Below, piece by piece: positions 36,696 to 37,057 of a stretch of DNA of 64,000 nt. A program made the position numbers and the translations under genes. The notes beneath the pieces were generated by a model that saw nothing but the letters and a program-made list of their open reading frames with translations, was not told the origin of the DNA and made no database searches. Position 1 is the stretch's first letter, and each line of letters begins with the position of its first letter. Source of the stretch: Hyphococcus sp. (GTDB lineage: Bacteria; Pseudomonadota; Alphaproteobacteria; Caulobacterales; Parvularculaceae); the NCBI GenBank assembly GCA_028284345.1, contig JANQRY010000003.1:248001-312000 (forward strand), read 5' to 3'.

Positions 36696-36726
36696 AAAAA
36701 AAATCCCGCTTCCTTTCGGGAGCGGG
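36696..36726 (-). terminator. Attenuator-type intrinsic terminator between the BCAA leader peptide and ilvD
   Basis: Minus-strand RNA CCCGCUCCC-GAAA-GGAAGCGGG-A-UUUUUUUU. Confidence 0.9.
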
Positions 36727-36752
36727 CTGTCTGGAGATCGTGTGTGCGTTCG

Positions 36753-36896
36753 TTAACGCGCTCGCTCCATGGCCGCTCCCCGGACGGGGCTGATAAGGAC
36801 TACGAGAAGAAGGACGAGGACCAGCGCGAGCGGCAGCGAAGTCGCGGACAACTCCGCGACATCGCCGATCCCTCCCTGATGCAGTATGCTCTGCAC
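36753..36896 (-). CDS. ilv leader peptide (attenuation), GTG-start candidate
   Basis: Frame reads MQSILHQGGIGDVAELSATSLPLALVLVLLLVVLISPVRGAAMERAR*; 12 of 13 residues in LALVLVLLLVVLI are Leu/Val/Ile; upstream of the terminator and ilvD; start codon uncertain (GTG 36896 or TTG 36851). Confidence 0.85.
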   Translation of the reverse strand: MQSILHQGGIGDVAELSATSLPLALVLVLLLVVLISPVRGAAMERAR

Positions 36897-37057
36897 TGAC
36901 TTGACCTTTTTTGCTGCGTCGCAAACGCTGCAACGCGGAACCGGCTTTACAACAGCTTTACGTCAAAACACAACCATAAACTGGCTGGTTTCATCAATTA
37001 ATTTGCGGGCGCTGTCGAATTTGCGACATATTTAGCATGATCTGCCATCGCCCGCCG

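Follow-up and report, generated by a model that had tools for sequence, protein, structure and literature searches.

How the branched-chain amino acid genes of Hyphococcus sp. are controlled is the question raised by the DNA directly upstream of ilvD in the stretch analyzed here (64,000 nt at its full length, hereafter the window). The genes concerned are arranged as follows:

36649-34979, minus strand: ilvD, dihydroxy-acid dehydratase (TIGR00110, 631 bits, above the cut-off), presumably the first regulated gene
34955-33942, minus strand: ilvC
33936-32125, minus strand: ilvB, acetolactate synthase large subunit
32128-31562, minus strand: ilvN, acetolactate synthase small subunit, overlapping ilvB
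31466-26869, minus strand: leuA, leuC, leuD and leuB, probably co-transcribed with the ilv genes

The gaps along the series ilvD-ilvC-ilvB-ilvN-leuA-leuC are 23, 5, -4, 95 and 8 nt, with overlaps after that, and no minus-strand terminator-like or promoter-like site was found in the 95 nt that separate ilvN from leuA.

The first-pass annotation had proposed that a leader frame rich in Leu, Val and Ile precedes ilvD and probably starts at GTG or TTG. The frame was confirmed, with GTG as its start, and the following elements were located at its 5' end and within it:

36973-36946, minus strand: candidate promoter TTGTGT-N16-TGTAAA, read by eye
36910-36897, minus strand: likely ribosome-binding region, AAAAGGTCAAGTCA before the GTG
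36896-36753, minus strand: leader peptide ORF of 47 codons, GTG start, TAA stop
36830-36792, minus strand: control codons (residues 23-35), 12 of 13 being Leu, Val or Ile and one Ala

The minus-strand translation of the ORF is VQSILHQGGIGDVAELSATSLPLALVLVLLLVVLISPVRGAAMERAR, followed by the stop. In the four sister ORFs that were aligned to it, both start and frame are kept (three are of equal length and one is a codon longer), as is the sequence RAGGTCAAGTC ahead of the start codon. The window and three of the sisters have GTG as this codon; the leader start is best placed here because the fourth sister species has ATG at the same codon. An ATG within the leader at 36862, with GGGAGG ahead of it, was rejected as the start, since the ORF of 20 codons that begins there is in a different frame from the conserved one and ends in a stop within the control run. 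A consensus scan upstream of the leader found no sigma-70 site; the candidate promoter has a counterpart of like spacing in congeners (TTGTTT-N16-TGTAAG, by eye).

Within the window the composition of this frame is unique. When all six frames were searched for 12-residue stretches with at least 11 Leu, Val or Ile residues, only three overlapping ones were obtained among 99,311, all of them in the leader. Similarly, a 420-nt test box was placed at 636 sites over both strands, and a Leu/Val/Ile-rich frame followed by a terminator appeared in just one of them, the leader site. The leader exemplifies a class of small ORFs that routine gene prediction is prone to overlook.

The region following the control codons contains two mutually exclusive RNA structures, whose parts are:

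36780-36773, minus strand: region 2, the 5' strand of antiterminator helix 1, GGGAGCGG, encoding the end of Arg, Gly, Ala and the start of Ala
36769-36765, minus strand: 5' strand of antiterminator helix 2, UGGAG, from consensus folding
36764-36739, minus strand: inner antiterminator hairpin enclosing the stop codon (GCGUU/AACGC in the window, GCU/AGC elsewhere), from individual folds and the consensus
36736-36732, minus strand: 3' strand of antiterminator helix 2, CUCCA, from consensus folding
36726-36705, minus strand: terminator hairpin, CCCGCUCCC (36726-36718)-GAAA-GGAAGCGGG (36713-36705), then A
36725-36718, minus strand: region 3, which is the terminator 5' arm CCGCUCCC, an exact 8-nt complement of GGGAGCGG
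36703-36696, minus strand: terminator U8 tract, read from the sequence

The terminator begins 26 nt after the end of the leader ORF, and ilvD starts (36649) 46 nt past the U tract. Both the intrinsic terminator and the 8-nt antiterminator of the first-pass annotation were thus recovered, the former with one internal C.A mismatch in its stem (36720 vs 36711) and the latter extended by two helices that had gone unmentioned. Consensus folding of the 19 same-genus loci gave the order GGGAGCGG/CCGCUCCC, UGGAG/CUYCA and the inner hairpin, so that the antiterminator exceeds 8 nt and encloses the stop codon. In these loci, 98.7% of cells are paired in the helix 1 region and 78.9% in the inner hairpin. 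The predicted folding energy of the antiterminator (-22 to -35 kcal/mol) exceeds that of the terminator alone (-13.5 to -16 kcal/mol). An unpaired position occurs at the same place of the terminator stem in all 19 loci (C.A or C.C; a bulge in L006), and the C at this mismatch has a G as its partner in the antiterminator, as though to keep the terminator the weaker of the two structures.

Covariation within the genus is slight because the terminator arms are nearly invariant there: three pairs show two-sided changes, and 5 of 500 shuffles attained the covariation score observed. In L002, the closest relative (95% IlvD identity), helix 1 contains a U.U mismatch (GGGUGCGG). Support is weak for a protector 1:2 hairpin, which would shield region 2 when no ribosome is present (mean z -0.71 across the 19 same-genus loci, with the best values in L003-L005, sisters of the window). 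A local hairpin between CCCC (36789-36786) and GGGG (36781-36778), considered as a reason for the conserved Ser-Pro, was rejected: it is paired in 85.5% of cases, lacks covariation and does no better than shuffled sequence.

We assign the leader to the attenuator class because it combines an ORF rich in codons for the pathway products, an intrinsic terminator, and an exclusive 2:3 antiterminator placed just after the control codons. We consider it highly probable (roughly 93%) that the leader before ilvD is a ribosome-mediated transcription attenuator; translation, stalling, termination and the extent of the operon are what we infer from the sequence. The attenuator very probably controls ilvDCBN and probably, with it, leuACDB. 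The first-pass annotation had read the locus in much the same way, and its attribution of ilvDCBN to the attenuator stands, while the evidence for control of the leu genes consists of their spacing and the lack of a terminator-like or promoter-like site before them.

The mechanism proposed is drawn from the established attenuation of trp, his and ilv operons. RNA polymerase would start upstream of 36896, and a ribosome would translate the leader of 47 residues. Under a shortage of Leu-, Val- or Ile-tRNA, this ribosome would stall in the control run at 36830-36792, leaving region 2 (36780-36773) free just ahead of it to pair with region 3 (36725-36718). The UGGAG/CUCCA helix and the stop-codon hairpin would strengthen the antiterminator thus formed, and transcription would continue into ilvDCBN and probably on into leuACDB. 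With an ample supply of the amino acids, the ribosome would reach the stop codon and, because this codon lies within the antiterminator, would prevent that structure from forming, so that the terminator at 36726-36696 would end transcription.

Other leader peptides are known to act through translation or through Rho-dependent termination, and stalling in a translated ORF could in principle act here mainly in one of these ways and not on the intrinsic terminator. This seems highly improbable. A strong hairpin with a tract of U6 to U9 follows the ORF in 18 of the 19 same-genus loci by scan, and in the nineteenth (L006) by eye; the arm of this hairpin pairs with the tail of the ORF, and the start of ilvD lies past the U tract, at the distance given above.

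A lack of conservation of the peptide frame and of the pairing in relatives was one of the grounds on which the first-pass annotation had been prepared to see its reading fail, and no such lack was seen. The leader was found directly before ilvD in all 19 same-genus loci with 5' flanks (the window and 18 congeners). In one further congener (G021, listed as 100% complete), neither an ilvD match nor a leader was found. Nine control positions were aligned across the 19 loci; Leu, Val or Ile occupies 168 of these 171 sites, and the three interchange freely. The N-terminal half of the leader varies within the genus in both length and sequence, and the codon differences among the five closest leader ORFs comprise 139 nonsynonymous and 78 synonymous ones. 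The peptide tail ISPxRGAAMEPAR is conserved in the genus, and in its paired portion the conservation extends to the nucleotides. The Gly codon of region 2 is GGA in 18 of 19 loci, yet GGA makes up only 7% of the Gly codons in window genes; the third base of the Ala codon two positions further on, which runs out of helix 1, varies.

The choice of control codons is also skewed. CUU and CUC account for 82% of the control Leu codons in leaders L001-L019 vs 47% of Leu codons in window genes, and AUU for 89% of the control Ile codons vs 32%, samples that are not independent because the leaders are related. This preference may mark the tRNAs that are most sensitive to starvation.

The genes preceding the leader bear on a different explanation of the locus. 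They are:

42859-42739, minus strand: SAM riboswitch (87.5 bits), preceding metX
42656-41670, minus strand: metX
41673-40468, minus strand: metB
40477-39479, minus strand: hom, homoserine dehydrogenase
39651-38317, minus strand: proB
38320-37058, minus strand: proA, ending ∼160 nt upstream of the leader start

The genes metX-metB-hom-proB-proA are closely spaced, on the same strand as ilv, and reach almost to the ilv leader. Between proA and the leader no clear terminator was found, and therefore transcripts reading through from metX-proA may also be stopped at the ilv terminator. This arrangement would suit a leader ORF that encodes a functional small membrane protein, with the terminator merely ending the upstream proBA transcript, for which no better terminator lies in between; the hydrophobic run followed by RGAAMERAR indeed resembles a single membrane helix with a charged tail. 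We regard this explanation as very unlikely. The run is made up of Leu, Val and Ile almost to the exclusion of the Ala, Gly, Phe and Met that are usual in membrane helices, and the variable N-terminal half and the excess of nonsynonymous differences in the sister ORFs do not fit a functional protein. The third positions of the tail codons are fixed where they are paired and free where they are not, and the tail varies together with the terminator arm (see below). Furthermore, the leader precedes ilvD in other families, where proA was found nearby in 0 of 44 loci.

The attenuator reading was then assessed across families. Loci of two further families were fetched by IlvD protein alone, which avoided selection by the feature itself, and the resulting set comprised 63 ilvD loci from three families of one alphaproteobacterial order, the genus included. 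A leader, defined as a frame upstream of ilvD in which 8 or more of 12 residues are Leu, Val or Ile, was present in 59 of the 63 loci; 55 also had a scored terminator, and in 40 of these the tail and the arm were in addition exactly complementary over at least 6 nt. In a simple scan, the exact complement in the other 15 loci with leader and terminator was just 3-5 nt. Among the 37 loci outside the genus that have both leader and terminator, with kinship ignored, tails fitted their own arms over 6.65 nt on average, compared to 6.01 nt (sd 0.13) when permuted, a value reached in none of 5000 permutations. Compensated tail/arm pairs included CGGAGCGG/CCGCUCCG (L004, L137 and L144), CCGGAGCGG/CCGCUCCGG (L138 and L143), UGGGAGCGG/CCGCUCCCA (L106) and AAGCGGG/CCCGCUU (L125). 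Tail and arm thus co-vary in loci chosen by IlvD alone, and the pairing, like the frame, is conserved in relatives. Three loci of one genus (L124, L128 and L130) have no leader before ilvD; in both genomes of this genus that were checked (G061 and G079), a leader precedes ilvC.

A structured leader with a terminator ahead of a biosynthetic operon could also be a ligand-binding riboswitch or a T-box, acting without translation, and the regions upstream of ilvD and ilvB in other phyla have been put forward as weak riboswitch candidates (PMC8632094). A search with Rfam 15 (amino acid leaders, riboswitches and T-box) gave no match to the leader at the gathering score, the best sub-threshold hit having E ≥ 1.7, which is no better than chance. 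The conserved structure lies, in every same-genus locus, in or just after an ORF with codons for the pathway products, and we find a riboswitch or T-box here scarcely credible.

The distribution of the attenuator was analyzed with a covariance model built from the 19 same-genus leaders. At E ≤ 1, it matched 170 of 397 genomes from the order. In a class-wide sample of 387 genomes, one match was obtained at E ≤ 0.01 besides the window's own, and there too the leader stands before ilvD. The window's genome has one real copy; a second candidate (L062, E 1.5) falls within a long coding frame whose product resembles a penicillin-binding protein and was taken as a chance match. The nearest named relatives by IlvD belong to the alphaproteobacterial Parvularculaceae (Marinicaulis, Parvularcula), and named carriers include Marinicaulis, Parvularcula, Maricaulis, Robiginitomaculum and Brevundimonas. 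This order-wide set, which Rfam 15 does not cover, is a basis for building a family model.

Like leaders also occur before ilvD in Lysobacter, Luteimonas and Aquimonas records. Among gammaproteobacterial (mostly Lysobacterales) ilvD genes, ∼60% identical to that of the window, Leu/Val/Ile leaders were observed at L209, L212, L213, L217, L221, L222, L225 and L226, mostly with the motifs LVLVLIT and GAG. Most Dyella and Luteibacter records have no such leader directly before ilvD.

The ilvD-leader model also matched Thr/Ile-rich leaders (for example VTTIITITTTG and ITMITTTSW) before genes of a fused aspartokinase-homoserine dehydrogenase:

L068, 2602-2713: Thr/Ile-rich leader (family f5)
L082, 6349-6442, minus strand: Thr/Ile-rich leader (family f5)
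L084, 1857-1949, minus strand: Thr/Ile-rich leader (family f5)
L101, 387-482: Thr/Ile-rich leader (family f5)

These are apparently threonine attenuators with a like scaffold. It is conceivable, though we lean against it, that one scaffold has been handed down by descent in the order with its control codons swapped, to Leu/Val/Ile before ilvD or ilvC and to Thr/Ile before the aspartokinase-homoserine dehydrogenase gene. Convergence on a common CCCGCUCC...GGAGCGGG terminator is the alternative. As a separate observation, leaders rich in Ile, Thr and Met (for example KTTMMIIITPT), followed by a terminator of the same kind, precede the gene for a protein of ∼110 residues, which gave no Pfam match in the one case tested:

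L081, 1839-1945, minus strand: Ile/Thr/Met-rich leader (family f3)
L092, 1958-2067, minus strand: Ile/Thr/Met-rich leader (family f3)
L098, 1926-2033, minus strand: Ile/Thr/Met-rich leader (family f3)

Among known systems, the first-pass annotation had pointed to a likeness to the tail of IlvL of Escherichia coli MG1655 (NC_000913; MTALLRVISLVVISVVVIIIPPCGAALGRGKA). The likeness extends to the layout: ilvL of the ilvXGMEDA operon is likewise a Leu/Val/Ile-rich leader with a similar GAA tail and ilv genes downstream, with an exact 8-nt pairing of region 2 and the terminator 5' arm directly after the control codons, and with a terminator that has a GAAA loop and U8. It does not extend to the pairing letters (GUGCGGGG/CCCCGCAC in E. 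coli vs GGGAGCGG/CCGCUCCC in the window), and because these differ, common descent is not established. In addition, IlvL has 32 residues compared to 47 in the window leader, and only in the window is ilvD the first gene.

Closer to the window in taxonomy, attenuation of ilvBN in Caulobacter crescentus has been published (Tarleton et al., 1994, as cited in PMC4117421), and the latter study mapped the leader CDS by ribosome profiling. As described there, this attenuator of a related alphaproteobacterium likewise has tandem branched-chain codons and a Rho-independent terminator; it precedes ilvBN, whereas that of the window precedes ilvD. An alphaproteobacterial ilvB leader peptide, found by genome comparison, is cited in PMC1273637 as previously described by Vitreschak et al. 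(2004); going by that citation, it is likewise a case of branched-chain attenuation in the same class, before ilvB and not ilvD. In another phylum, the branched-chain operon ilvBNC of Corynebacterium is likewise reported to be regulated by a leader peptide or uORF (PMC10272879, PMC11857589). The kind of attenuator is therefore already known, from enteric ilvL, Caulobacter ilvBN and the alphaproteobacterial ilvB leader. To this kind the window leader adds a case preceding ilvD, although such a case may already stand in Vitreschak et al. (2004; 10.1016/j.femsle.2004.04.005). Our understanding of attenuation itself is unchanged by the leader, which would supply the main branched-chain operon of an alphaproteobacterial family with a control mechanism of known kind and exact, testable parts.
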